The position numbers and the translations under genes are program-made. A stretch of 64,000 nucleotides of DNA from Vulcanimicrobiota bacterium (GTDB lineage Bacteria; Vulcanimicrobiota; Vulcanimicrobiia; Eremiobacterales; Eremiobacteraceae): contig JABCYQ010000012.1 in NCBI GenBank assembly GCA_013290125.1, positions 1 to 64,000 on the forward strand, written 5' to 3'. Position 1 is the stretch's first letter, and every line of letters begins with the position of its first letter. This document shows positions 7,478-31,154 of the stretch, in pieces. Below the pieces are notes generated by a model. It saw nothing but the letters and a program-made list of their open reading frames with translations, was not told the DNA's origin and searched no databases.

Positions 7478-8821
7478 CTAGAACGTGGTGCCGCTTGAGA
7501 AGTGAAAGCCTTCGATCCGGCACGCCGGCACGACGTGGTTCTCCGAGCGCACGAGGTCCTTCGCGAGTTCGCAGCGGCCGAGCGCTCCGACGATGGACTC
7601 GTTGAAGCGCATGTTGCGCAAGCCGCGTGTGATGCGACCGTCTTCGATCAGGAAGAATCCGTCTCGCGTCATGCCGGTGATGATGGTCTGCAATTTGTCG
7701 ACGAGCCGGATGTACCACGTGCGCGAGACGAGCAGTCCGCGCTTCGTCTCGGCGACCAACTGCGCGGCGCTTTTCTGGCCCGGCGAGACGACGACGTTGA
7801 GCGGCAACGGTCCATAGGTGTTCGGCGCCGGCAATGCGTGGCCGGTGTTCGCGTGCTTGAGCTTGGCCGCGTAGTACGAATCGTAGACGACGTCGCGCGC
7901 GATGCCTTGTTCGACGAGCGTCACCGGCCGGCGCGTGACGCCTTCGAAGTCGAACGGCATGCCGTCGCCGAGCGGGTGCGCGAAATCGTCCGCGATCGTG
8001 ACGTTTGGACCCATCACGCGCTCGCCGATGTGCCCGGACATGAACGACGCGCCTTCGGCGAACGGCATCGCTCCGAATCCCGTCCACGAAAGATAGCCCA
8101 GGAATTCACGCACGGCGGGCGGCTCGAGTATGACGGTGTACTCGCCGGGATCGACGGCGCCGGGAGTGCGGCCGGCAACGGCCTTCTGCGCGGCGGTCGT
8201 CGCGAGCGCGTTCGCATCTAAGTCCGCGAAGCGGCGCGCGTGACCTTCGGCGTAGCCGCTCGAGTCGGCGCTCATGGCCTTGATGTTGATCGCCGAGTCC
8301 GTCGAGCGGAAGAACTGTCGGATGCCTTTGGAGTTTGCGATCGCGACGCTGCCCGCGCTTGTCGAGACGTAGCCGGCCGCATCGATCTCGTGCTTGACCA
8401 TCACGCGGACGATCTTCGCGACCGCGGCCGCGCGCTCGGCGGCTGTTGTGGACGCCGTGGCCTCGTCGTACGCGAACTCCATCTCCGCGGTCGCCGGACC
8501 CGACGTGGGCAACCCGGGAAATTCATCATCTGCAGGCGAGAGGCGCGCGATCTCGCACGCCCGTTTGACGAGGGTGCGAATGCCGGCGGCATCGAGTTCG
8601 TTTGATGTGGCGACGCCGACGCGCTTGCCGATCACCGCGCGCACGCTCAGGGTTCGGTTGCGTTCGATGATGTTCTCGTGGATGGTATTGCCCATGATCC
8701 GCGATAGCGCATAGTCTTGCGCCATGACGATCGCTTCGGTCTCGTCTGCTGTGGAATCGCGCAACGCGGCGTCGAGCACCGCATCGGCCGCCGCGCGCTC
8801 GGCCGCAAGATCAGCGCGCAT
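7478..8821 (-). CDS. pmbA: TldE/PmbA family protein, non-metal subunit of TldD/E protease
   Basis: A protein of about 447 residues of the PmbA/TldE family. It lacks the HExxxH zinc motif of its partner, as expected for TldE, but keeps the family fold signatures: the MGNTIHENIIERNRT region near the N-terminus, and GRTPGAVDPGEYTVILEP and NTYGPLPLNVVVSPGQ further on. With TldD it forms a heteromeric peptidase that degrades unfolded or modified small peptides and matures some RiPPs. I chose the ATG at 8821, which overlaps the tldD stop by 11 bases and has a GGGGTGG element upstream; an ATG at 8845 is also possible. Confidence 0.9.
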   Translation of the reverse strand: MRADLAAERAAADAVLDAALRDSTADETEAIVMAQDYALSRIMGNTIHENIIERNRTLSVRAVIGKRVGVATSNELDAAGIRTLVKRACEIARLSPADDEFPGLPTSGPATAEMEFAYDEATASTTAAERAAAVAKIVRVMVKHEIDAAGYVSTSAGSVAIANSKGIRQFFRSTDSAINIKAMSADSSGYAEGHARRFADLDANALATTAAQKAVAGRTPGAVDPGEYTVILEPPAVREFLGYLSWTGFGAMPFAEGASFMSGHIGERVMGPNVTIADDFAHPLGDGMPFDFEGVTRRPVTLVEQGIARDVVYDSYYAAKLKHANTGHALPAPNTYGPLPLNVVVSPGQKSAAQLVAETKRGLLVSRTWYIRLVDKLQTIITGMTRDGFFLIEDGRITRGLRNMRFNESIVGALGRCELAKDLVRSENHVVPACRIEGFHFSSGTTF

Positions 8822-10265
8822 AGCCGACCACCCCGACTTCGACATCTCTGAAGCGCGTCGGCGCAGCGCCCTGCGACGAGCGCGCGGTCTGCATGGGCTC
8901 TCCTTTGCCGCAATTCGGCGTGCCCCACGCCGTCCAAGAATTTCTGTCGCCGATCGCGTCGCACGAGCCCCAGAATTTCGGCGTCATGCCGGCGTACGTC
9001 GGATTCTTGAGCATCTTGCCTTTCTTGCCGTTCTTGATCTCGTAACCGAGCTGACAGCCGAACTGGAAATTGAGCCGCTTGTCGTCGATCGACCACGAGC
9101 GATTGCTCTCCATGTACACGCCGTTGCGGATGCCGTCGAAGAGTTCGGCGCTGGGCGTCGTGCCGGGCTGCAGGTTGACGTTGCCGATCCTGATCATGGG
9201 CAGCCGGCCCCAGTATTCGGCGCGCACGCAGCCGCAAAGCTTGACGCCCGCATCCATCGCGGTGTCGCGACCGGCCATGTAGCCGACCAATATCCCGTCG
9301 CGGATGAGATCGATCGATGAAGCTGGCGTTCCCTCATCGTCGTAGCCGTGCGTTGCGAATGCAAGCGGGCACGTCATGTCGCACACGACGGTCACGAGCG
9401 GACTGCCGTAGCGGAAGCTGCCGAGCTTGTCGAGCGTGGCGAACGAAGTTCCCGAAAAATTTGCTTCCCAGCCGAGAACGCGATCGAGTTCGAGCGCGTG
9501 ACCGATCGATTCGTGGATCTGCAGCGAGACCTGATCGCCGGATAGCACGACGTCCATGGTTCCGCTCGGACAAAGATCTGCGGTGAGCAAAGCCACCGCT
9601 TCCTCGCCGATGCGCCGCGCGTTGCCCGGCAAGTCGGCTTTTTGGATGATCTCGTAGCCGCCCGTCTGATAGAGTCCGCACGTACCCGGAAAGAGGCGGT
9701 CTTGCACGTCGTTCTCGCCGACGGCGAGCGCTTCGCACGCGCTGCCGCATTGCAGCAGTTCTTGCGCGATGCGGCTGCCTTCCGTGTTGGCGAATTCTTT
9801 CGTCGTTCGCCAGATATCCATCCACGCGCGTCCGACCGTGACGCCGCGCGCCCCGCGGATGTCCGCTTCGACGTCCATCAGATACTTGACGCGCTCACCG
9901 GTGGGAATCGTGGCGGGGTCGACCTGAACGGGCGTGCGGTATTCCCCCGTGTGTTTGCCGGCGGGCATGAGTTCGATGCCATGGGCTTTCACAGTCGCGC
10001 TCGCGCGCGCGACTTCGACCGCAAGCGCGGCGATCCGGTCGATCTCTTTTCGCTCGGCGTTCGCGCTGGATGCGAACCCCCATGCGCCGTCCACGATCGC
10101 GCGGACGGAAAAACCGGCGCTCTCGGAATCGCTGAAACCGTTGACAACCCCGTTGCGCACTTCGATGTGTTCGTCGCGAACAACGCCGAACCGAACGTCG
10201 GCATATGAGGCGCCGCGAGCGACGGCGGTATCTAGCGCCGCTTGAGCTTCAGCGTCGAATCGCAC
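8811..10265 (-). CDS. tldD: TldD family metalloprotease
   Basis: A 484-residue protein with the TldD zinc motif HESIGHALELD (His251, Glu252, His256) in the middle of the chain and the C-terminal TldD/PmbA domain. It is the catalytic half of the TldD/E complex. The start is GTG with an AAGGAG Shine-Dalgarno eight bases upstream, which is one of the clearest in the window. It is divergent from a small HTH gene and co-transcribed with pmbA and the lipoprotein gene. Full length for the family, with no disruption. Confidence 0.93.
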   Translation of the reverse strand: MRFDAEAQAALDTAVARGASYADVRFGVVRDEHIEVRNGVVNGFSDSESAGFSVRAIVDGAWGFASSANAERKEIDRIAALAVEVARASATVKAHGIELMPAGKHTGEYRTPVQVDPATIPTGERVKYLMDVEADIRGARGVTVGRAWMDIWRTTKEFANTEGSRIAQELLQCGSACEALAVGENDVQDRLFPGTCGLYQTGGYEIIQKADLPGNARRIGEEAVALLTADLCPSGTMDVVLSGDQVSLQIHESIGHALELDRVLGWEANFSGTSFATLDKLGSFRYGSPLVTVVCDMTCPLAFATHGYDDEGTPASSIDLIRDGILVGYMAGRDTAMDAGVKLCGCVRAEYWGRLPMIRIGNVNLQPGTTPSAELFDGIRNGVYMESNRSWSIDDKRLNFQFGCQLGYEIKNGKKGKMLKNPTYAGMTPKFWGSCDAIGDRNSWTAWGTPNCGKGEPMQTARSSQGAAPTRFRDVEVGVVGYAR

Positions 10266-17159: not shown

Positions 17160-18311
17160 TCAGACCGCCGCCAATGCCTGCTCGATATCCGCGATGATGT
17201 CCGATTCGGCCTCGATGCCGACCGAGAAGCGCAGCAGATTGTCCGTGACGCCGCGCGCCTCGCGTATCTCCTTCGGAATGCTCCCGTGCGTCATCGACAC
17301 GGGATGACACAGGAGCGACTCAACGCCGCCCAGACTTTCCGCGAGCGAGAACACGCGCACCGCGGATGCGAACGCGCGCGCGCGCGCTGGCCCGCCTTTC
17401 AAAACGCACGACACCATGCCGCCGAAGCCGCGCATCTGGCGTTTCGCTAGTTCGTGCTGCGGGTGCGACGGCAGACCCGGATAATACACGCGCTCGACCG
17501 ACGGATGACCGTCCAGATATGCGGCAACGGCACGCGCGTGCCGCTCGTGCTCGCGCATGCGCACGGCGAGCGTCTTCACACCGCGCAAGGTCAAGAAGCA
17601 ATCGAACGGTCCGGGAATCCCGCCGACCGCGTTCTGGTGGAACTTGACGATGTCGTGCAGCGTCTTGTCGTTTGTCCCCACGAACCCGCCGACCGTATCG
17701 GAGTGGCCGCCGATGTACTTCGTCGTGGAGTGCACGACGAAATCCGCGCCGAGATCGAGCGGATTCTGCAAGAACGGCGTGGCAAACGTGTTGTCGACGG
17801 CGACGCGAACGCCGCGCTCCTTGCACAAAGCGCCGATCACGCGCAGATCGCAGAGTTTTAACAGCGGGTTCGTGGGCGTCTCGAGCCAGACGAGTTTCGT
17901 GGCCGCGGTAATCGCGGCGGCGACGTTTTCCGAAGACGACGCGTCGACATAGTCGAAGCGCACGCCGTAGCGCTTGAAGACTTTGTCGAAAAGTCGGAAT
18001 GTGCCGCCGTAGAGGTCGTCGCCGACGACGACGTGATCGCCGGCCGAGAGCATGTTGCAGACCGCCGACGTCGCCGCCATGCCTGAAGCGAAGCAGGAGC
18101 CGTACTCCGCGTTTTCGAGCGACGCAAGACAGCGCTCGAGCGCCACGCGCGTCGGATTGACCGTGCGCGAATAGTCGTAACCCTTGTGCACGCCCGGCGC
18201 GGACTGCGTGTACGTGGACGTCTGGAAGATCGGCACGATCGTGGCGCCGGTGATCGGCTCCGCATCCTGTCCGACGTGAATGGCTTTGGTCGCGAATTCC
18301 ATGCGTCCCAT
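17160..18311 (-). CDS. Cystathionine gamma-synthase / gamma-lyase (PLP-dependent trans-sulfuration enzyme)
   Basis: A 383-residue Cys/Met-metabolism PLP enzyme of normal length. Visible are the substrate and cofactor motifs YSRTVNPTR, SGMAATSAV, WLETPTNPLLK and DNTFATPF, and the PLP-lysine motif HSTTKYIGGHSD. The immediately upstream gene is a cystathionine beta-synthase (seven-base gap), which favours a gamma-lyase role in reverse trans-sulfuration (homocysteine to cysteine). Sequence alone does not separate synthase from lyase. An ATG nine bases further in (18302) is an alternative start. Confidence 0.92.
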   Translation of the reverse strand: MGRMEFATKAIHVGQDAEPITGATIVPIFQTSTYTQSAPGVHKGYDYSRTVNPTRVALERCLASLENAEYGSCFASGMAATSAVCNMLSAGDHVVVGDDLYGGTFRLFDKVFKRYGVRFDYVDASSSENVAAAITAATKLVWLETPTNPLLKLCDLRVIGALCKERGVRVAVDNTFATPFLQNPLDLGADFVVHSTTKYIGGHSDTVGGFVGTNDKTLHDIVKFHQNAVGGIPGPFDCFLTLRGVKTLAVRMREHERHARAVAAYLDGHPSVERVYYPGLPSHPQHELAKRQMRGFGGMVSCVLKGGPARARAFASAVRVFSLAESLGGVESLLCHPVSMTHGSIPKEIREARGVTDNLLRFSVGIEAESDIIADIEQALAAV

Positions 18312-18318
18312 CGTCCTC

Positions 18319-19719
18319 TTAGGTGGCGGACAGGTAGTTGATGATGTCCATCTTCGTGATCACACCGACCGGAGTGCCCAGCTTTGCGACCAGCACTGCG
18401 GCGTGGCCGAGCGAAAGCTGCTTGTACGCGTGTTCGACCGGCTCGCGATCGTCGAGCACCGCGAACGGTCGGCCCATCACATCCCGCACTTCGCTGTGCA
18501 CGACGTCGGCCTTGTCGTAGACCATCTGCATGACCGAAACTTCGTTCACCGAGCCGACGATCTCGGGCCCATCGACTACGGGGATCTGCGAGATCTGATA
18601 CTCGCGCATGAGTTCGACCGCGCGCTTGACGGAGTCGGTGGGCGAGAGCGTGATCAGTTGCGGAATCGGTCCCTTGGCGCGAAGCACCATGCCGATGGTC
18701 GCAGCGCGACCCTCTTCGCCGATGAATCCGTTCGCGCGCATCCACTCGTCGTTGAAGATCTTCGACATATACCCACGCCCGCTGTCCGGCAGCAGCACGA
18801 CCATGACCGCGTCCGCCGGCAGTTCGTGTGCGACGCGCTGCGCGGCGACTGCTGCCGTGCCCGACGAACCGCCGACCAAAAGGCCCTCCTCGCGACAGAT
18901 GCGCCGCGCCATCAAGAACGAATCTTTGTCCGAGACGCGCTCCATGCGGTCGATGGCTTTGAGGTCCACGGTCGCCGGAAGAAAATCTTCGCCGATACCT
19001 TCGACTTTGTACGATTTCGCGGTGTCGCCGGAATAGATCGACCCTTCCGGATCCGCGCCGACCACCACGACTTTTGGATTCATTTTCTTCAAGTAGTGCG
19101 CTATCCCAGAGATCGTGCCGCCGGTGCCGACACCGCCGACGTAGTGCGTGATCTTGCCCGACGTCTGCTCCCAGATCTCGGGCCCGGTCGACTCTTCGTG
19201 CGCTCGCGGATTCACAAGATTGGCGAATTGATTGGGCTGGAACGCACCCGGTATCTCAGCGGCAAGTTTCGCCGACACGCCATAGTACGATTCCGGACTG
19301 CTCGCCGGCGCCTTAGTCGGTGTGATGACCACTTCCGCGCCGTACGCCTTCAACAGAGAGACTTTCTCGTCGCTCACCTTGTCGGGCATGACGAGGATGC
19401 AGCGGTATCCCTTGATCGCGGCGACCATGGCCAAGGCAGAGCCGGTGTTGCCCGACGTGGCTTCCACGATCGTGCCCCCGGGGCGAAGCAAGCCGCGCTC
19501 TTCAGCATCGCGCACCATCGCGAGCGACGGCCGATCTTTCACCGAACCGCCGGGATTGACGTACTCGATCTTGGCCAGCACCGTGCATTTCGGACCGTCC
19601 ATCACGCGCCGGAGTTTGACGAGCGGCGTCCGCCCGACGACGTCGAGCGCCGAGTCGTAGTAGCGCATCCCGTCTGCGCGCATAGGTCCGAGCGGTGACT
19701 GCATCGGTTCGGTCTTCAC
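18319..19719 (-). CDS. Cystathionine beta-synthase (PLP domain plus CBS pair)
   Basis: A 466-residue protein. The N-terminal cysteine-synthase-like fold carries PLP Lys in GSVKDRPSLAM, the TSGNTGSALA substrate loop and GGSSGTAAVAA. The C-terminal 130 residues are two CBS domains (for example QISQIPVVDG and HAAVLVAKLGTPVGVITK), which usually bind adenosyl ligands. The reaction is serine plus homocysteine to cystathionine. It is 10 bases downstream of the Pst-like ATPase gene and seven bases upstream of the gamma-lyase gene, so it is part of the same operon. Confidence 0.93.
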   Translation of the reverse strand: MKTEPMQSPLGPMRADGMRYYDSALDVVGRTPLVKLRRVMDGPKCTVLAKIEYVNPGGSVKDRPSLAMVRDAEERGLLRPGGTIVEATSGNTGSALAMVAAIKGYRCILVMPDKVSDEKVSLLKAYGAEVVITPTKAPASSPESYYGVSAKLAAEIPGAFQPNQFANLVNPRAHEESTGPEIWEQTSGKITHYVGGVGTGGTISGIAHYLKKMNPKVVVVGADPEGSIYSGDTAKSYKVEGIGEDFLPATVDLKAIDRMERVSDKDSFLMARRICREEGLLVGGSSGTAAVAAQRVAHELPADAVMVVLLPDSGRGYMSKIFNDEWMRANGFIGEEGRAATIGMVLRAKGPIPQLITLSPTDSVKRAVELMREYQISQIPVVDGPEIVGSVNEVSVMQMVYDKADVVHSEVRDVMGRPFAVLDDREPVEHAYKQLSLGHAAVLVAKLGTPVGVITKMDIINYLSAT

Positions 19720-19729
19720 GAAACGTCCC

Positions 19730-20509
19730 TCAATCTATGCGGCCTGCGAGAAAGTCTTCGGTGCGCGCGTCCGACGGACGGCTGAACAACGACGGCGTGT
19801 CGCCGATCTCCACCACCTCGCCGCGCGCCAGATAGCACGTGACGTCCGAGAGCCGCGCGGCCTGCTGCAAGTTGTTCGTCGCGACGAGCAGCGTGCACTC
19901 GCGCCGCAGCCGGCTCAAGACGTCCTCGAGCACTTGCGTCGCGACGGGGTCGAGTCCGGCAGCGGGTTCGTCCAGCAGCAACGCTTCCGGTTCCAACGCG
20001 ATCGCGCGAGCGATGCAGATGCGCTGGCGCGTCTCGTGGGGAAAGCTCTCAGGCTTCTTCTTCGGCCGGGCGCCGAGCGGTTCCCAGAGCAAGACGCGGC
20101 GCATCGCGCGCTCGTACGCCTCGTCGAGAGCGCGCTCGCTTTGGACCCCCATCGCGCGCAATCCGAATACGACGTTTTCGAAGACGGACATCGGCAAGAG
20201 CGCGGGTGTGGGGAAGACCAAGCCGAGCCGGCGCCGCACGCGCGCGACGTCGGCAGAAGCGCTGAGGATCTCTTCGCCGTCGAGGATCACGCTGCCGGCG
20301 ACGCGCCAGAGCGGATCCAATTCGAGCAGGCGGCACAAGGCGCGAAGAAGGACCGACTTACCCGAACCGGCGGCACCGATGAACGAGAGCGATGTGGCCG
20401 CCGGCAGTGAGAACGAGACGCCGCGCAAAACCTCGACGTTTTCGCGCGAAACCCGGAGGTCCGCGACCGCCAGCTTCGGCTCGAGTCCGGCCGATCGCAT
20501 CGCACTCAT
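19730..20509 (-). CDS. Divergent PstB-like ABC ATPase with degenerate motifs
   Basis: A 259-residue protein, closest in layout to PstB. Walker A (GAAGSGKS, 45-52) and Walker B (LLLDEP, then AGLD) are intact. However, the Q-loop Gln is Pro100 (VFPTPALLPMS), the LSGGQ signature is replaced by FPHETRQ (156-162), and the H-loop His is Asn212 (VATNNLQQA). The C-terminal TEDFLAGRID matches the PstB end. It would be expected to bind ATP but hydrolyse it poorly. The bona fide pstB at 24527 keeps all motifs. The ATG at 20509 overlaps the preceding permease stop; 20500 is an alternative. Confidence 0.88.
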   Translation of the reverse strand: MSAMRSAGLEPKLAVADLRVSRENVEVLRGVSFSLPAATSLSFIGAAGSGKSVLLRALCRLLELDPLWRVAGSVILDGEEILSASADVARVRRRLGLVFPTPALLPMSVFENVVFGLRAMGVQSERALDEAYERAMRRVLLWEPLGARPKKKPESFPHETRQRICIARAIALEPEALLLDEPAAGLDPVATQVLEDVLSRLRRECTLLVATNNLQQAARLSDVTCYLARGEVVEIGDTPSLFSRPSDARTEDFLAGRID

Positions 20510-21213
20510 GCGCGGCTGAGCGATTCGTGCGGTTCGCCCTCGATCAGCCGCGAGGCCGCATGCATGGCGAGAACCAGCGCGACGAGCGCGATCGCTCGCC
20601 ACGCGACGACCGGCGCATCGGGATCCGCAGCCGACGCGAAGAACTGGACGACGGCGAACGGGGCGTGCGGCGCCACGATATTCGTCAGCGCCGGTCCACC
20701 TGTGAACGCGCCGGCCACGCCCGCCAGGGCGACGACGATCGCGGCCGTTTCGACGCACATGCGAGCCGCAGTGCGAAGCGCCACGGCGCCGATGAGGCGC
20801 ACCGAGCCGCGGATGTGCACGGCAAGCGCGATATAGCGGGGCGACGCGCCGGCTGCTGCCGCTGCGTACAGCCGGCGGCGCGCATAGCGCGAGTTGAAGG
20901 TTTCGACAAGGGTAGCCGCCGCCGCCGGCAGACACGCGATGAAGAGCGCGAGGACCGTGATTCCGATGATGCTCGTGGCACCGCTCGCGGCGGCGATGAC
21001 CGCCACCGCACACCCGGTCACGACGGGCGGCACGGCGCGCGCACTCCTACCCGCGGAACGCACGAGCGAGCTCGCCGCGCCCGCCGCTTCCGCCGCGACG
21101 GTGAGCGCGGCCATAAGCGCCACGATCATCGTGATGGGCAGTGCGATCGCGACCGAGAACACCGTCGTCAACGCACCGTCGAACGCTCCCACGGGTAGGA
21201 CGCTCATGTCCAT
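20506..21213 (-). CDS. Divergent PstA-like ABC permease
   Basis: A 235-residue inner-membrane permease with about six helices. An EAA-like loop is visible (AAAAAGASPRYIAL), but where PstA has a Gly-Glu-Ser-Ala-Pro motif this protein has CVETAAIVV. It is shorter than the canonical PstA in this window (280 residues). The start is ATG 21213 or 21207, overlapping the upstream permease stop. It is operonic with the neighbouring PstC-like and PstB-like genes. The transported substrate is unknown. Confidence 0.78.
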   Translation of the reverse strand: MDMSVLPVGAFDGALTTVFSVAIALPITMIVALMAALTVAAEAAGAASSLVRSAGRSARAVPPVVTGCAVAVIAAASGATSIIGITVLALFIACLPAAAATLVETFNSRYARRRLYAAAAAGASPRYIALAVHIRGSVRLIGAVALRTAARMCVETAAIVVALAGVAGAFTGGPALTNIVAPHAPFAVVQFFASAADPDAPVVAWRAIALVALVLAMHAASRLIEGEPHESLSRA

Positions 21214-22085: not shown

Positions 22086-24497
22086 CTAGCGCTTGCCTTC
22101 GGTTTCGCGGTCGTCACGCGTTTCGGCCACACGAACGAATCCGAGTTGACGCAAATACGCGAGATGGACCGCAAGCGAGGCATCACCTTTTATCGAGAGC
22201 CATTCCTGATCCGGTATCAGTGCCGAACCGGGGCCATCGAGCATGAAGGCCATGCTGGTCGCCTTCCCAGGATTCTTCGTCATCGGGATGTTCGCGGGAA
22301 TCGTGGTGTAGGTCTCGACGTCGGGAGTCATCGAGAACGCGTCGAGCATCGGCGGGGCCGCCGCGTCGTTCATGTTCAGCGGATCGATGCCGAAGAGCAC
22401 TTCTACCGTTCGCAGGATCGACGGGATGCTGTAGTGCGTGTGGTCGATGAAGCTCTTACGCACGTACGGGCCCATCACGAACGCCGGCTGACGGTGCGAG
22501 TCGACGTGATCGCCGCTGCCCTGCGGGTCGTCGGTCGTGACGAAGACGATGGTATCGCGCCATTCGGGCATGTGCGACAGCCCGTCGATGATCCGGCCGA
22601 GCGCTTCATCGTTATTCGCGACGTAAGACGCCGGCGTGTAGAACCCCGACTTCGTTCCCGCGGTGTGATCGGTCGGAAGCGTGAGGTACGAGTACGCCGC
22701 GAGACCGTGCGCCTTCACGTCGGCGAGGAACAACTCCGCGCGATGCGTGTCGGAGACGGCGAAGTCGATGTGTGCGCCTGGGTACTCGCGGTCCGCGTTG
22801 GCGGCGAGCCCCGGGGCGATGTTCCCTCCGCGCACGACGGTCATCTGCTCGCCGTACACGCGATACGAAAGACCCTTGCGCTGGAAACCGTCGATCAACT
22901 CGCCTTTGGGACCGAATATAGCGCTGACATCGACGCGCGGTCCGCTTGGCAATTCGCTGCGATCTTTGTACCAGTCGAAGTTCATCGTGGCGACCGAAAC
23001 GCGATCTTCACCCATCTCGGCGTACGGCCAGATCGAATAGGGGACGCGCCGATCGGTCTTCAACGCCGGATCGTCGGGCGTGTGCGCGTTGCGCACGTGG
23101 TAGTCGTTGACCATGCCCTGCGTCGTCCACGAGTGTCCGTAGATGCTCGCCTGTCCGTTCCCCATGAAATCGTCGAAGAGCGTGTAGCGTTCGGCAAGCG
23201 CGTGCGCGTTTGGCGTGAAATGGCGGCCGTAGAGCAAGAGCGCGGGATCCGCGTTTGCCGTCGGCTCGTCGCCGAACTCTTCATCGAAATGTTTGTTCTC
23301 GCGCACGATGAACAGCACGTGTTTGATCGGCGGCAGTTGGTCGGTCGTTGGCTGCGCGACCGCGAAATGGTTGTCAGCGGCCACTTGCGCCGTCCATTCC
23401 GGAAGGCGAGCGGGCTCGAAGACCAGATGTTGGAGGAAGCCGGTATACCAGCCGTTCCATTCAGAGCCGGGGTCGGCTTGCGTGCCGAGCCCCTGAGCGC
23501 TCACGATCCAGAGCTGCTGCTTGGGGCGCGGATCGTCGTCGATGGTCGACGACGTCTTCGAGATCACCGCCATCGGATACCAGCCGGTCGGAATTCTGCC
23601 GAGCAACTGGCCGCTCGCGCGGTCCAACACGGCGACGTCGTCGAATCCCGACTCCGCGACGAAGAGATCGTGCCCATCGGCAGAGACCGCCATCCCCGAT
23701 GGAGTCTGACCGGTCGACGGCAGCGGCGAAAGTGAGAGGTCGAAGCGCCTTGTCACGGCGAGCGTCGGGAGACCGATCTCCGCGACATCGGAACCGTCGG
23801 CGTTGGCCACAAACGCGCTCTGCCCGGCGATGAGCAACGCGGTGGGGTGCGCGCCTGTCTGGATGCGCACGGGCGTTGCGGCGCCGCCGGACCAGACGTC
23901 GATGTGGTCGCTATCGTAGAGCGTGGCGATGATGCGGCCGCCGCTCATGCCTACGGAAAACGGCTGACCGCTTGCGTTCAGATGCCCGAGCTCTGCTCCG
24001 CTCGTGTCACTGACCACATCCACTTCTTGGAGCGCGGTGCGGGCGACGATGATGCGGTGTGTCGCAGGATCTTCGACGATGCCGTTGAGCAGCCCGCCGA
24101 TATGCAGATCGGCCCGTTTGGTGAACGCTGGTCCGTCGACGGAAGCCGCCGAGTCGTAGCGATAGCGCGAGATCATTCCGGTGAAGCCGCGCGTGACGTA
24201 CAATCCGTCGTTCGTCCAGGTCATGCCCGACGCGAACGGTGCGGCAAGGCGGTCGACTTGCCTTGCGTCTTCACCGGTCGCGATGACGTCGATGGCGTTC
24301 CCATCTTGCGAGAGCACGGCGATCCACTGTCCGTCCGGCGACATGGCGGCCGACGTGGCGAAGCCTTCGACCGGAATGGTGAAACCGGTCGGCGTGACCG
24401 AGCGGCCGTCGGGGAGCAACCCGAACGCCTTCGCGGCGGAGCCGGACGCTACGAATGCCGCGGCAAGCGCGACAATGGCGAACACACGCATCTTCAC
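22086..24497 (-). CDS. YncE-type beta-propeller fused to phosphoesterase (PF04185-like)
   Basis: About 803 residues. After a signal peptide (hydrophobic segment ending in SGSAAKAF), an N-terminal seven-bladed propeller of YncE/YVTN type runs to about 370. A phosphoesterase domain follows (HVLFIVRENKHFDEEFGD, later TTDDPQGSGDHVD), in the family of phospholipase C and acid phosphatases. It probably releases phosphate from organic esters in the periplasm or outside. It lies 29 bases downstream of pstB, so it is Pho-cluster linked. I chose the GTG at 24497, which has an AGGAG 10 bases upstream; the ATG at 24491 is an alternative. Confidence 0.85.
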   Translation of the reverse strand: MKMRVFAIVALAAAFVASGSAAKAFGLLPDGRSVTPTGFTIPVEGFATSAAMSPDGQWIAVLSQDGNAIDVIATGEDARQVDRLAAPFASGMTWTNDGLYVTRGFTGMISRYRYDSAASVDGPAFTKRADLHIGGLLNGIVEDPATHRIIVARTALQEVDVVSDTSGAELGHLNASGQPFSVGMSGGRIIATLYDSDHIDVWSGGAATPVRIQTGAHPTALLIAGQSAFVANADGSDVAEIGLPTLAVTRRFDLSLSPLPSTGQTPSGMAVSADGHDLFVAESGFDDVAVLDRASGQLLGRIPTGWYPMAVISKTSSTIDDDPRPKQQLWIVSAQGLGTQADPGSEWNGWYTGFLQHLVFEPARLPEWTAQVAADNHFAVAQPTTDQLPPIKHVLFIVRENKHFDEEFGDEPTANADPALLLYGRHFTPNAHALAERYTLFDDFMGNGQASIYGHSWTTQGMVNDYHVRNAHTPDDPALKTDRRVPYSIWPYAEMGEDRVSVATMNFDWYKDRSELPSGPRVDVSAIFGPKGELIDGFQRKGLSYRVYGEQMTVVRGGNIAPGLAANADREYPGAHIDFAVSDTHRAELFLADVKAHGLAAYSYLTLPTDHTAGTKSGFYTPASYVANNDEALGRIIDGLSHMPEWRDTIVFVTTDDPQGSGDHVDSHRQPAFVMGPYVRKSFIDHTHYSIPSILRTVEVLFGIDPLNMNDAAAPPMLDAFSMTPDVETYTTIPANIPMTKNPGKATSMAFMLDGPGSALIPDQEWLSIKGDASLAVHLAYLRQLGFVRVAETRDDRETEGKR

Positions 24498-24526
24498 GAT
24501 CGAGTCTCTCCTCTTCAAATTGGGCG

Positions 24527-25303
24527 TCAACCGAATCGTCCGGTTATATAGTCTTCCGTCCGCGGATCTTTGGGCGTCGTGAAGATCGACGACGAATCGC
24601 CGAACTCCACCAGTTCGCCCGGGGTCGCTTCGCCGGCGAGCATGAAACCGGTGTAGTCCGAACAGCGTGCGGCCTGCTGCATGTTGTGCGTGACGATGAC
24701 GATGGTGTACGTCTTCTTGAGATCGCGCATCAGCTCTTCGATCTTCATCGTCGAGATCGGATCGAGGGCAGACGCCGGCTCATCCATCAACAGCACTTCC
24801 GGTTCGACGGCGAGCGCACGCGCGATGCAGAGCCGCTGTTGCTGGCCCCCCGAAAGCGACGTGCCGGATTGATTGAGTTTGTCTTTCACTTCATCCCAAA
24901 GCGCGGCCTGACGCAGACTCTTCTCCGCGATCGCGTCGAGCGCGCTGCGTTGCGTCACCTCGCCTGCGAGGCGCACGCCTGCGACGACGTTCTCTTTGAT
25001 CGTCATCGTGGGAAACGGATTTGCGCGCTGAAAGACCATGCCGATGCGGCGGCGTAACGCCGTCGGATCCACGCCGGGATCGTAGAGATTCTCTCCGTCT
25101 AGCACGACTTGCCCTTCGACTCGCGTGTTCGCGATGACCTCATGCATGCGGTTCAGGCAGCGCAAGAGCGTGGATTTTCCACAGCCCGACGGACCGATGA
25201 GCGCCGTGATGGCGTTCTTCTCGAAATTGATCGTGATGTCGCGGACGGCCATATGCTTGCCGTAGTACGCGTTGAGCGACTGCGTGCGAAGGTCGACCGT
25301 CAT
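24527..25303 (-). CDS. pstB: Phosphate ABC transporter ATP-binding protein PstB
   Basis: A 258-residue ATPase with all motifs: Walker [11 protein letters not shown]-loop VFQRANPFP, signature LSGGQQQR, Walker B VLLMDEP and H-loop VTHNMQQA. It energises high-affinity phosphate uptake at the inner face of the cytoplasmic membrane. I placed the start at the ATG at 25303 because the reading frame upstream lacks family sequence. It follows pstA and precedes the phosphoesterase gene. Confidence 0.97.
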
Positions 25304-25325
25304 GCGGCCTCGATGCTTGGCCGGC

Positions 25326-26168
25326 TCATCTGACGGGCATCCGCGATGGCAGCGCGAGCCGCGCCGCAAGATTCAAAAGAAAGACGAAGATGATCAACAC
25401 GAGCGCGCCGCCCCACGCGAATTGCTGCCAATCTTTATATGGCGAAATCGCGTAATTGAAGATGATGAGCGGTAGTGCCGCCGTCGGTGAGTTGATGCCT
25501 CGGCCCCAGAACAGACTGCCGAAAGCGGTGAAGAGCAGCGGTGCGGACTCTCCCGCCACGCGCGCGATTGCGAGCAGCGTTCCCGTGACGATGCCGGCTC
25601 GAGCGCACGGTAGCGTCACGAGCAGCACGGCTTTCCACGAGGGGATGCCGAGCGCGAGCGCCCCTTCGCGGATCGAGTGCGGAACCAACCGCACCGCTTC
25701 TTCGGTCGTGCGGACGATGATCGGCAGCATGATGATGGCGAGCGCCACCGACGCGGAGAGCGCCGAAAAATGTCTGCTCGGCAGCACGACGAGTGCGTAT
25801 GCGAAGACGCCGATCGCGATCGAGGGTACGCCGGTCAGCACGTCGCTCAAGAAACGCACTGCGGTGGCGGTCTTCCCGCGGCCATACAGAGCGAGATAGA
25901 TCCCGGCAAGGATGCCGATAGGAATCGCTGCGAGCGATGCCATCGCGATGACAAGCGCCGAGCCCGCGATCGCATTTGCGATTCCGCCGCCGGAAATGCC
26001 GATCGGCGCTGGCAGTCGCGTGAAGAACGAGGGCGTCAACGCTCCGGCGCCATTCTGGACGACGTAGAAGATGACGGCGGCGAGAACGCCTGCGGCGAGC
26101 AGGGTGCACAATCCGGCGACGACGACCATGAATCCGCTGTACGCGCGGCGCAGCGCAAGATTGGTCAT
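25326..26168 (-). CDS. pstA: Phosphate ABC transporter permease PstA
   Basis: A 280-residue permease with six helices and the PstA motif [16 protein letters not shown], in which the Gly-Glu-Ser pattern is intact. Its ATG overlaps the pstC stop (ATGA). It forms the membrane channel with PstC. Confidence 0.96.
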
Positions 26169-27154
26169 CGGGTGCGCGATCGCGAGCCGCTCGCGACTCC
26201 CCAGACCAATGTGCGAGCGATGACGTTGACCACGAGGCTCACGACGAAGAGCAGTAGGCCGATCTCGATCAGCATCGCCACGTACTGACTGCCCGTCGCT
26301 TCCGTGAATTCATTTGCAAGAACGCTGGCCATCGAATATCCGGGGGCGAATAGCGAGGCTGCGATGGCTGGCTTGTTGCCGATGACCATCACGACAGCCA
26401 TGGCTTCGCCGAGCGCGCGGCCCAGGGCGAGCACGAGTGCGCCTATGACGCCGGAGCGCGCATATGGAATGACTGCTTTGGCGAGCACTTCCCATTTTGT
26501 CGCCCCGAGCGCAAGCATCGCTTCGCGCTGCTCGTTCGGGACCGCAAGAAATACGTCGCGGGATATCGCCGCGACCGTCGGCAGGACCATGATCGAGAGC
26601 AAGACGCCGGCCGCGAGCATGCCGACACCGTAGAACGGACCTTGGAACAGCGGCAAGAATCCCAGCGTTTTGTTCAAGAACGGCTCGACCATCGTGCGCA
26701 TGATCGGCGCGAGCACGAACAAGCCCCAAAGACCGTAGACCACGCTCGGCACTGCCGCGAGCAACTCCACGAGCATGCCGAGCGGACCGGCGAGCCGGCG
26801 CGACGCGAGTTCCGCCAGATAGAGAGCGCAAGCGACGCCGATCGGACCGGCGATCGCGAGCGCGATAGCCGACGTCACGAGCGTGCCGAACACAAACGAG
26901 AGCACGCCGTACTTGCCGTTGGTCGGATCCCACGCCGTGCTGATGATCGACGAGAGCGGAACCGTTTTGATCGCGGGCAGCGACGCGAGGAGCAAGACGA
27001 TGAAGAGGCCGGCGACGACGAGCAGCACGAGCCACGCTGCTCCGGTCACGGTCGCAAGGAATGCGCGATCGCCGACGGGCGAAATCGCGCGTCGCAATCG
27101 CGTTGACGTTAGGCTCAAGCCGGCGGTTGCGATGTCGACGGTTTGCTGCGACAC
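26165..27154 (-). CDS. pstC: Phosphate ABC transporter permease PstC
   Basis: A 329-residue permease with the conserved motif GRALGEAMAVVMVIGN and an EAA-like loop (LALGATKWEVLAKAVIP). Length and topology match PstC. It follows pstS with an 85-base gap, in which I see no clear hairpin or promoter, and overlaps pstA. Confidence 0.96.
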   Translation of the reverse strand: MSQQTVDIATAGLSLTSTRLRRAISPVGDRAFLATVTGAAWLVLLVVAGLFIVLLLASLPAIKTVPLSSIISTAWDPTNGKYGVLSFVFGTLVTSAIALAIAGPIGVACALYLAELASRRLAGPLGMLVELLAAVPSVVYGLWGLFVLAPIMRTMVEPFLNKTLGFLPLFQGPFYGVGMLAAGVLLSIMVLPTVAAISRDVFLAVPNEQREAMLALGATKWEVLAKAVIPYARSGVIGALVLALGRALGEAMAVVMVIGNKPAIAASLFAPGYSMASVLANEFTEATGSQYVAMLIEIGLLLFVVSLVVNVIARTLVWGVASGSRSRTR

Positions 27155-27239: not shown

Positions 27240-28289
27240 CTAGTGGATGGTCGCTAGCGCTTGGCGGGCACCGTTTTGGACGTTCGAGGGCAGCGGCACG
27301 TAGTGCACGTTTTTCGCATAGGATTGTCCCGAGCTCACAACCCAGTTGAATAGATCGACGAGCGCATGTCCGCGACCGGCGTCGGATTGGGCCTTCCAAA
27401 GCATGACCCACGAGTAGCCGCAGATCGGATAGCTCGACGCTCCGTTTTGGTCGACGATCGAGAAATCGGTGGGGCTTACGTTCGGCTTCTGGGCTGCTGC
27501 TGCGCGAACGGTGTCGAGCGTTGGGGAGACAAATCTGCCGCTCTTGTTCTGGATCGCTGCGTACGTCATACCGTTTTCGAGCGCGTACGCGAGTTCGACG
27601 TAACCGAGCGCGCCCGGATTGTTGCGGACCTGGCCAGCGACGCCTTCATTGCCTTTTGCACCTAGCGATGCTGCCGCAGCCGGCCAGCTCACGGTCTTGC
27701 TCGTACCGACACTTGTGTTCCAATCGGAACTGACGTGGCTCAGATAGTCGGTGAAGATGTACGTGGTGCCGCTGCCATCGGCGCGGTGCACGGTGACCAC
27801 CGGCAGGTTCGGCAGATTCGCGCCGGGATTGAGGGCCGCTATCGCCTTGTCGTTCCAATTCGAGATCTTGCCTTCGAATATGCCGACGAGCACGTCGGGC
27901 GTGAGACGGAGGTTGGCCGGTGCGCCGGGCACATTGTAGGCTATCACGACGCCGCCGAGCGCGACCGGAACTTGCACGACATCGCCGTTCGATGCATTGG
28001 CGGCGGCTAATTCTTTCGCGTTCATCGGAACGTCGCTCGCGCCGAAGTCGACGGTCTTGGCGGTGAATTGCTGGATGCCGGCGCCGGAACCGATGCTCTG
28101 GTAGTCGACTGAGACGTCGGTGTGGACTTGCGAATACTGGTAGAACGCGCGCGAGAAGAATGGATAGTCAAAGGACGAGCCGGCGCCGACGAGCTGCGAG
28201 TCGGCTCTGACGATCGCCGTGCCGAACAGGCCGGCGAGCGCAACGGCCGCGACCGCGACCGCGCTCAGAACGAGGGGGCGTGTGCGCAC
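27240..28289 (-). CDS. pstS: Periplasmic phosphate-binding protein PstS
   Basis: A 349-residue protein with a signal peptide (about 1-29) and PstS ligand motifs GAGSSFDYPFFSRAFYQY, GSGAGIQQF, DFGASDVPM and HRADGSGTTYIFTDYLS. The start is GTG with AGGAG about 14 bases upstream. It binds phosphate and hands it to PstCA. Located between phoU and pstC. Confidence 0.96.
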   Translation of the reverse strand: MRTRPLVLSAVAVAAVALAGLFGTAIVRADSQLVGAGSSFDYPFFSRAFYQYSQVHTDVSVDYQSIGSGAGIQQFTAKTVDFGASDVPMNAKELAAANASNGDVVQVPVALGGVVIAYNVPGAPANLRLTPDVLVGIFEGKISNWNDKAIAALNPGANLPNLPVVTVHRADGSGTTYIFTDYLSHVSSDWNTSVGTSKTVSWPAAAASLGAKGNEGVAGQVRNNPGALGYVELAYALENGMTYAAIQNKSGRFVSPTLDTVRAAAAQKPNVSPTDFSIVDQNGASSYPICGYSWVMLWKAQSDAGRGHALVDLFNWVVSSGQSYAKNVHYVPLPSNVQNGARQALATIH

Positions 28290-28389: not shown

Positions 28390-28405
28390 TTAAGGAAGAT
28401 TAAGG
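28390..28405 (-). promoter_or_regulatory. TTAAGG direct repeat, candidate Pho box upstream of pstS
   Basis: TTAAGG occurs at 28390 and 28400, one helical turn apart. The second copy includes the TAA stop of phoU. TTAA-type repeats of about 10-11 bases are PhoP/PhoB sites in Bacillus and cyanobacteria. A similar pair occurs upstream of phoB, so this is inferred. Confidence 0.4.
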
Positions 28406-29140
28406 AGCGCCGGTGGCGCCTTCCACACGCGCAGCCCGTATGAGCTCGTCGCCGTGCGCCGCGACGTCGTTGATCTCGACGACCGATCGCTTGAGCTTCT
28501 TCGGAACGCCTTCGACCATGTACGCGACGCGCTCGCAGACGTTGGTGGCGTGGTCTGCGATGCGTTCCAGATAGAGCGCGACGAGTATGAGATTGCTGCC
28601 GCGGTTTATGGCCTTGGGATCTTTGGCCATGAATTCGATGAGCTCTTTGAACACCGTGCGGTAGAGGCGATCGACTTCGTCGTCTTTGGCGGGGATGCGA
28701 TGTGCTGCAGTGGCGTCTCGATTTGCGAACGCGTCGAGCGCTTCGCGCAGCATCTCTCTCGCGCGCGCGGCCATGCGCGGGATGTCGATCATCGGCTTGA
28801 GTTGCGGTTCGTTCGCCAGATGCTTTGTGATCTGCGCGATGTCGCAGGCGTGGTCACCGATGCGTTCTAGGTCGATGATGATGTCGAGCATCGCCGCGAT
28901 CGTGCGCAGGTCGGACGCCATGGGCTGCTGCAGGGCGAGCAGGTTCAGGCAGTTGGTCTCGATGCGGACGTTCAAATCGTCGATATAGTCGTCGAAATTG
29001 AGGATCTCTTCAGCTAGGGCGATGTCGGACCGCGCCAATGCATCGACTGCCTTGGTGATGGCTTCCTCGACGAGACTGCCCATGCGCAGGACGTCCTGCT
29101 GGGTCTCGTTGAGTATGCGGTGGAAGTTCTCGCGAGCCAA
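28400..29140 (-). CDS. phoU: Phosphate signalling regulator PhoU
   Basis: A 246-residue all-helical protein with two PhoU repeats, each with a metal-binding acidic/His pattern (DLERIGDHACDIAQ and LERIADHATNVCE). PhoU restrains the PhoR kinase when phosphate is plentiful, through the Pst transporter. Normal length. It lies between phoR and pstS. Confidence 0.96.
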   Translation of the reverse strand: MARENFHRILNETQQDVLRMGSLVEEAITKAVDALARSDIALAEEILNFDDYIDDLNVRIETNCLNLLALQQPMASDLRTIAAMLDIIIDLERIGDHACDIAQITKHLANEPQLKPMIDIPRMAARAREMLREALDAFANRDATAAHRIPAKDDEVDRLYRTVFKELIEFMAKDPKAINRGSNLILVALYLERIADHATNVCERVAYMVEGVPKKLKRSVVEINDVAAHGDELIRAARVEGATGAP

Positions 29141-29251: not shown

Positions 29252-30418
29252 CTAGATGCTGAAGGTGCAGCGGAATGTCGTTCCTCTATTCAGCTCGCTC
29301 TCGACCGTCACCGATCCGCCGTGCGCTTCCACGATATGTTTGACGATCGCAAGTCCGAGACCCGTGCCGCCGGCGCTGCGCGATCGCGATTGGTCCACGA
29401 CATAGAAGCGCTCGAAGATGTGCGGCAGCGCATCGTACGGTATCCCCGGCCCGTCATCTTTGACATAGAGAGTCGCAAGACCCGGAGCAGAGCTCAGTCC
29501 AGCGTCGATGTGACCGCCCGACGGCGTGTGCCGAAGCGCGTTGTCGAGCAGATTCACCATGACTTGCACGAGCTTGTCGCGATCGCCGATAATCGTGACT
29601 TTTCCATCCGGCAGCGTGGCCAGGAGCGAAATGCCCAAGCGCCGCGCCCGCGGCAGATGCGATGCGACCACGTCGCGGCACAGTTCGACCAGATCGACGC
29701 TGCCGAAACGCATATCGAGTTTGCCGCTTTCGAGCCGCGCAAGGTCGAGCAGATCTTCGACGAGTACGACCATTCGATCGGTCTCCGCCGCAAGACTTCG
29801 AAGGAAACCGGCGGCCGCTTCGCCACCCGCACCGGACTGCAGCGTTTCGATCATGATCTTCATCGCCGAGAGCGGGGTCCGCAATTCGTGCGAGACGTTG
29901 GAGACGAAATCGCGGCGCATCGCTTCGAGATCGCGCACGCGCGTGAGATCTTCGACGATGGCGATCGCCTCGGTCGATCCGTCGGCGGCGTGCACGGCTT
30001 TCGTGGTGATGCGCAGATTGCGATCGGACGCCGCATGCAACGGCACGTCCGCTGTGCCTTCCACGCCCTCGCGCAGCGCCGCAAGGAGCCGGCGGTCAAG
30101 ATCGTAGCTGCGCACGCTCTCGATGAGAGCGCGGCCGACCGGACGCTCCGCCTGCACCCCTAAGATCTCGGTGGCGCCGGCGTTGAAGGCGACCACGCGC
30201 GCGTCGTCGTCGATGACGATGACGCCGACGGGCAGGGCATCCAGCAGCGCGCTCAGGCGCGCCATCGCTGCGAGGTCACTGTCCGATGAGACCGCCGCGC
30301 GATCTGTCGCCGCGGCGAGTTCGGCGCGCACCGCCTCGAGGCGGCGGCGCGTCACCCAGTAGGCGATGATAAAAGCGATGGCGAGCGCCACCGCTGCCGC
30401 GAGAAACGGCGAGATCAT
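29252..30418 (-). CDS. phoR: Sensor histidine kinase PhoR
   Basis: A 388-residue protein with one N-terminal membrane helix (about 4-24), a PAS domain (about 50-160), a HisKA domain with phospho-acceptor His in [12 protein letters not shown], and a HATPase domain with [18 protein letters not shown] and GGTGLGLAI. It phosphorylates PhoB under phosphate limitation. Four bases follow the phoB stop. Confidence 0.95.
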
Positions 30419-30422
30419 CGGT

Positions 30423-31154
30423 TCACTCGCGGAAGAGATAACCGCGGCTGCGCACAGTGATGATGTGCTTCGGATCGTTGGGATCGTCTTCGACTTTTTC
30501 GCGCAGCCAGCGGACGTGGACGTTCACCGTCTGCTGGTCACCGTAGAAATCGTAGCCCCATACGCGATCGAGCAGCGTCTGTCGCGTCACGACGCGGCCG
30601 CGGTTCTCGAGCAGCACGTGCAGCAGCGAGAATTCCTTGGGGGCGAGCTCCACGACCTTGCCGCCCTTCGTGACCCGTTGCCGGGCGACGTCGAGTTCGA
30701 TGTCGCCGCCGGTCAAGACGGTCACGTCCTGCGCCGCCTTTGCGGCGTTGCCGAGGCGGCGCAGATGCGCCTTGACGCGCGCCAGCAGCTCGTAGATGGA
30801 GAACGGTTTTGTGATGTAGTCGTCAGCGCCGATCTCGAGCAGCAGCACCTTGTCGATCTCTTGATCTTTCGCGCTGAGCATGAGAACGGGCATGTTCGAG
30901 CGCTTGCGGATCTCGCGGCACACTTCCGTGCCATCGAGTTCCGGCAGCATGATGTCCAGCACGCAGAGATCCGGCTTCTCGATCTCGAGGATGCTCAGCG
31001 CCTGACGTCCGTCACCGGCCGTGCAAACCAAGTAACCGTTCTTCTCGAGATTGTAGCGGAGCGTCTGAAGTATATGCACTTCATCGTCCACGACAAGGAT
31101 CTTCCACTGCTTCGAGGGCGCGCGCTCAACGCTGGCCTGCGACATTTCGATCAT
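30423..31154 (-). CDS. phoB: Response regulator PhoB
   Basis: A 243-residue OmpR-type regulator. The receiver domain has phospho-acceptor Asp in CVLDIMLPE and Lys in LTKPFS-like TKPFS. The winged HTH C-terminus has LAPKEFSLLHVLLENRG and VHVRWLREK. First gene of the Pho cluster; a TTAA repeat pair lies 71-86 bases upstream. Confidence 0.95.
   Translation of the reverse strand: MIEMSQASVERAPSKQWKILVVDDEVHILQTLRYNLEKNGYLVCTAGDGRQALSILEIEKPDLCVLDIMLPELDGTEVCREIRKRSNMPVLMLSAKDQEIDKVLLLEIGADDYITKPFSIYELLARVKAHLRRLGNAAKAAQDVTVLTGGDIELDVARQRVTKGGKVVELAPKEFSLLHVLLENRGRVVTRQTLLDRVWGYDFYGDQQTVNVHVRWLREKVEDDPNDPKHIITVRSRGYLFRE

Follow-up and report, generated by a model that had tools for sequence, protein, structure and literature searches.

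A PstB paralogue lacking conserved ABC ATPase motifs is encoded with its own permease pair in the pho-pst cluster of Eremiobacteraceae

The window analysed here is a 64,000-nucleotide stretch (contig JABCYQ010000012.1, positions 1 to 64,000) from a Vulcanimicrobiota bacterium of the family Eremiobacteraceae. It contains a phosphate gene cluster that lies entirely on the minus strand and is ordered phoB, phoR, phoU, pstS, pstC, pstA, pstB, a phosphoesterase gene, pstC2, pstA2, pstB2, cbs and cgl. The first three ORFs, named from sequence and conserved in synteny, encode a PhoB-like response regulator (30423..31154), a PhoR-like histidine kinase (29252..30418) and PhoU (28400..29140). These are followed by a canonical transporter composed of pstS (27240..28289), pstC (26165..27154) and pstA (25326..26168), which score above the cut-offs of TIGR00975, TIGR02138 and TIGR00974 respectively, and pstB1 (24527..25369), which scores 379.3 bits against TIGR00972, also above the cut-off, and has its true start inside the ORF. 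PstB1 is canonical at all motifs, as the preliminary description of this DNA had reported. A phosphoesterase with a propeller-like N-terminus (22086..24530, PF04185) separates this transporter from a second set of three genes, pstC2 (C2, 21204..22028), pstA2 (A2, 20506..21213) and pstB2 (B2, 19730..20509). The final two ORFs, also named from sequence, encode a cystathionine beta-synthase/cysteine synthase with CBS domains (cbs, 18319..19719) and a cystathionine gamma-lyase/synthase (cgl, 17160..18311).

The B2 gene encodes a degenerate PstB paralogue of 259 amino acids, and translation of the minus strand gives an ATG start and no internal stops at the coordinates noted earlier. The best NCBIfam family for this protein is TIGR00972 (phosphate ABC transporter ATP-binding protein), to which it scores 231.9 bits and does not reach the curated cut-off of 343.2. 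The AF2 model of B2 (pLDDT 92.8) has E. coli PstB as its best match in the PDB (9k3x_C, TM 0.90), and the first two ranks of a structure search with this model are both PstB. B2 is accordingly predicted to have the PstB fold, and it retains many structural residues together with a PstB-type C-terminus (TE..GR; RTEDF-AGR), a feature in common with E. coli PstB.

The nucleotide-binding motifs of the window's B2 are partly kept. Walker A (GAAGSGKSV, residues 45–53, 20351..20377), Walker B (LLLDEP) and the catalytic Glu181 of the DEP motif (19967..19969) are present. The Q-loop position is occupied by Pro100 in place of Gln (20210..20212), the signature position by FPHET (residues 156–160, 20030..20044) in place of LSGGQ, with Glu159 at the second glycine, and the switch position by Asn212 in place of His (19874..19876). 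FPHET is followed by RQR, as against QQR after the canonical LSGGQ. All three replacements had been noticed before, the second as FPHETRQ, and each is borne out by translation. In the family alignment, the adenine-stacking loop of the window's genus reads VSREN as against A-Y-Y-G-K, and its aromatics are gone.

A homologue search identified B2 in all 14 examined genomes of Eremiobacteraceae, which span nine genera, and the homologues were aligned with the columns conserved in 45 canonical PstB. This control set comprises canonical PstB of the class together with E. coli PstB, and all 45 members have the Q-loop Gln as well as the two glycines of the signature. The three losses seen in the window recur among the B2 homologues, with the Q-loop Gln lost in 14/14, the signature glycines lost in 14/14 and the switch His replaced by Asn in 12/14. 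A signature Ser is retained in four of the 14. The second signature glycine (position 159) is Asp or Glu in 13/14, and the flanking positions 158 and 160 hold nine and seven residue types; the only B2 without an acidic residue at 159, from genome G006, has Asp at 158 instead. The catalytic Glu is replaced by Asp in 11/14 and is kept in the three B2 of the window's own genus. Walker A and B had been described as intact, which holds for the window's protein; across the family an intact Walker B is found in this genus only, the other 11 having DDP, although the Walker B Asp (D180) itself is present in 14/14. Four residues are newly fixed in 14/14 (V210A, Y253F, I254L, T255A). As judged from the alignment, the motif replacements in B2 are not random. 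The earlier reading had allowed for sequencing error or a lineage-specific loss if close relatives proved canonical; all 13 other family genomes share the loss and 45/45 canonical PstB are intact, so that chance, sequencing error and species-specific decay are ruled out. When other ABC ATPases of the window's genome were sampled, a simple motif match, which missed some, gave standard signatures for most of them.

Two variants within the family were also observed. The B2 of genome G001 (8399–9169 of its locus) keeps the switch His (ATHN) and has neither the Q-loop Gln nor the glycines of the signature, and it may represent an intermediate or reverted state. The Walker A Lys (K51) is kept in 12/14 and is Arg in the B2 of two species (GATGSGRS), in which nucleotide binding may also have been lost. 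The proposal that B2 is nucleotide-binding is therefore uncertain, being supported by the Lys kept in the 12 proteins and weakened by the Arg of the other two and by the loss of the adenine-stacking aromatics in the window's genus.

Taken from the sequences, ATP hydrolysis by B2 has very probably been lost. Exchange of the catalytic Glu for Asp, replacement of the switch His and an altered signature are also features of degenerate-site ABC proteins such as TM287/288, BmrCD, TAP and CFTR, and the E to D and H to N changes of B2 resemble the degenerate sites of heterodimeric exporters. Known heterodimers of this degenerate type retain one complete composite site. By this likeness B2 could pair with PstB1 in a heterodimer that serves PstCA or C2A2, and a second PstB near the pst locus is found elsewhere. 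Tandem pstB pairs are known from Firmicutes, and three loci of the sister family carry such pairs after pstSCA, both members having full motifs. In Enterococcus faecalis, the tandem genes encode PstB1 and PstB2, which have unequal roles (PMC12096839). Both members of the E. faecalis and sister-family pairs are canonical, unlike B2. B2 has lost the signature as well as its own catalytic residues, which leaves both composite sites of a PstB1-B2 pair incomplete; whereas TM287/288, BmrCD, TAP and CFTR retain one canonical composite site, no pairing of B2 gives a complete one. B2 is moreover accompanied by its own permease pair in every family genome, and a heterodimer is considered unlikely.

The two permeases of the second module are divergent. 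C2 contains PF00528 and scores 66.8 bits against TIGR02138, below the cut-off of 196.45. A2 has no match in Pfam or NCBIfam, including TIGR00974, and its alignment has only four invariant columns. The AF2 model of A2 (pLDDT 77.7) has E. coli PstA as its best PDB match (9k3x_A, TM 0.70), a fold prediction of medium confidence only. The A2 of the window's genus, in the window and at two further loci, lacks the N-terminal membrane helix seen in other genera. The glycine of the EAA coupling loop is invariant in both permeases (G122 of A2, G166 of C2). Transport-specific residues were mapped on E. coli PstA and PstC, with the numbering checked on 9k3s. The equivalent of PstA Arg220 is lost from A2 in 9/14 (eight Gln, one Gly) and is Arg in five, including the window's genus; the equivalent of PstC Arg237 is lost from C2 in 4/14 and kept in ten, again including the window's genus; and the equivalent of PstC Glu241 is kept in 14/14. 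The second module resembles E. coli PstSCAB-PhoU (9k3s, 9k3x, 9k3y) in the predicted folds of B2 and A2 and in the type of locus. It differs in the absence of the Q-loop Gln, LSGGQ and switch His from B2, in the frequent absence of Arg220 and Arg237 from A2 and C2, and in family scores that do not reach the cut-offs.

At the level of sequence there is strong support for the earlier suggestion that this complex is no standard pump, and the disappearance of transport-specific arginines from the partner permeases adds to it. Transport of an unusual kind, slow or ATP-independent or of another anion, would fit the retention of PstC Arg237 in ten C2 and of Glu241 in all, the Glu181 kept in the window's genus, and a second PstS encoded just upstream in three genomes. 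No active site is complete, however, the PstA Arg220 is lost from nine of the 14 A2 and the first helix is missing from those of the window's genus, and continued transport has a low probability. Two tandem PstS-like lipoproteins are encoded on another contig of the window's genome (contig C6, 7330–10279 of the locus examined). They were not assigned to C2A2B2 as its second binding protein, as they adjoin a TonB-type receptor and no Pst permease is among the ORFs listed there.

The gene order around the second module is conserved. C2-A2-B2 and the pst cluster share one contig in 11/14 genomes, and a contig end intervenes in the other three. The genes between pstB and C2 vary by genome and encode the phosphoesterase, a second PstS (in three genomes) or outer-membrane proteins; the phosphoesterase immediately precedes C2 in 6/14. 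On the other side of the module, cbs directly follows B2 in 14/14, with a gap of 10 bases in the window, and cgl follows cbs in 13/14, the contig of the remaining genome ending at that point. C2 and A2, as well as A2 and B2, overlap by a few bases, and these overlaps together with the 10-base gap indicate that B2 and cbs are probably co-transcribed. The co-location with cbs and cgl in all genomes allows for a role related to sulfur, in which C2A2B2 would be, for example, a sensor or residual transporter adjusting the cbs-cgl pathway of cysteine metabolism. A full-length cbs homologue lies away from the pst loci in the seven sister-family genomes tested, which favours this role. The Pst families TIGR02138 and TIGR00972 nevertheless score above CysT/ModB, the module lies within the phoBR-phoU-pst cluster, and what is inserted before it is a phosphoesterase gene, a second pstS or genes for outer-membrane proteins; a tie to sulfur metabolism is therefore rather improbable.

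No B2-type protein was found in the other 135 genomes of the phylum examined (search at E <= 1e-97). Single-protein patterns run against a named genome collection returned nothing but ordinary ABC ATPases (two had 39–40% identity), a search that tests absence beyond the phylum weakly. In a tree of 59 PstB sequences, B2 forms one clade with support of 100/100 on a long stem, which points to a single origin; its placement relative to the two canonical PstB clades is uncertain, given the long stem and neighbouring support of 87/54. The profile score of B2 points to the sister family's HDL-type PstB. The sister-family PstB nearest to B2 have fully canonical motifs and adjoin phoR, with or without permeases. 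One sister-family genome (G078) encodes a phoB-phoR-C-A-B module whose motifs are canonical, and C2 (117.6 bits) and A2 (93.2 bits) both have their best profile match in the permeases of this module. Unlike C2A2B2, the G078 module has complete motifs and no link to cbs-cgl, and it is likely related to the active form that was ancestral. The most probable course of events, put forward tentatively because it draws on one genome and on long branches, is a single loss of ATPase function from an active second Pst module ahead of the radiation of the family.

The sister family also contains six loci at which a lone canonical pstB directly follows phoB-phoR with no adjoining permease genes. The lone-pstB genomes that were checked encode a pstC-pstA pair elsewhere, which is divergent in most. 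A lone PstB linked to PhoR may itself be a signalling arrangement.

In four species pairs, a simple count after Nei-Gojobori gives B2 a dN/dS of 0.066, 0.145, 0.035 and 0.144, similar to the ratios of pstA and canonical pstB; figures are approximate where dS approaches or exceeds 1. Judged by these ratios, B2 is under purifying selection. C2 and A2 are looser, with dN/dS of 0.09–0.38, the upper value being across the genus. Their fast evolution and the many substitutions of B2 are what would be expected of a duplicate that is decaying towards loss. The module is nonetheless intact in 14/14 genomes and nine genera with its order conserved, the B2 ratios are 0.035–0.145, position 159 is constrained to acidic residues, and the residues newly fixed in 14/14 argue for a changed function and not decay, which is most improbable. 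Maintenance of B2 by selection suggests regulating or sensing and not pumping.

In E. coli, replacement of PstA Arg220, PstC Arg237 or PstC Glu240 (numbering of the source) with Gln blocks transport and keeps signalling (PMC5775613). The PstB signature mutant Q160K signals phosphate sufficiency with no transport, and PstB E179Q signals starvation (PMC5775613). The lesions of PstB Q160K, PstA R220Q and PstC R237Q lie at the signature and at the same permease positions as those of the family (PMC5775613). The mutants carry single engineered changes in the only Pst system of the cell, whereas the changes of the family are natural, combined, and affect a second complex that accompanies a functional one. 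That C2A2B2 reports to PhoR/PhoU, as first proposed, is plausible on two grounds, its phoBR-phoU-pst location and the signalling without transport of E. coli mutants that carry matching lesions (PMC5775613).

From these parallels we infer a complex that would not transport, the conformation of its nucleotide-binding domains (NBDs) being read by PhoU and PhoR. B2 would still dock on its permeases, where the EAA-loop glycine is invariant, and nucleotide binding may persist. Asp or Glu in place of the second signature glycine, a position that we take to be that of CFTR G551, would repel the gamma-phosphate across the dimer interface. The CFTR mutant G551D likewise has an acidic signature residue, and in it bound ATP is made inhibitory via charge repulsion (PMC4956468). 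The missing Q-loop Gln, switch His and, in most members, catalytic Glu would prevent hydrolysis. With this repulsion and without the catalytic parts, the NBD dimer would be unable to close on ATP, and the complex would therefore rest in an NBD-open, inward-facing state. By analogy with E. coli PstB Q160K, PhoU and PhoR would read this state, the output would be biased towards 'phosphate-sufficient', and C2A2B2 would, alongside the functional PstSCAB, act as a brake or set a threshold.

A role in regulating the Pho system is given about an even chance. Against it, the window's own genus keeps Glu181, Arg220 and Arg237, so that the permease argument rests on the relatives; there is no second PstS at the locus outside the three genomes; and the two permeases diverge rapidly, with dN/dS reaching 0.38 across the genus, which is unusual in a dedicated sensor. 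The preferred reading, of C2-A2-B2 as a second Pst-type ABC complex that neither hydrolyses ATP nor pumps phosphate and that selection maintains for regulation of the Pho system, is given the same even chance. It is possible, and put forward tentatively, that this is a dedicated phosphate-signalling complex, a transport-dead importer with no complete nucleotide site, fixed family-wide, such that the transport and signalling functions of Pst are split between two paralogous complexes encoded within a single operon cluster. A literature search leaving out most subscription journals found no published description of such a complex.

The way in which Pst signals phosphate to PhoR, and the need for transport in this signalling, have been argued for decades from point mutants of E. 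coli. In Eremiobacteraceae, the same lesions have apparently arisen by evolution in an additional complex of its own and been retained there, which would provide a natural separation-of-function system for conformational signalling without transport. If this is true, C2A2B2 would go further than the heterodimers known to have one dead site, as an ABC complex in which no pairing yields a complete catalytic site.
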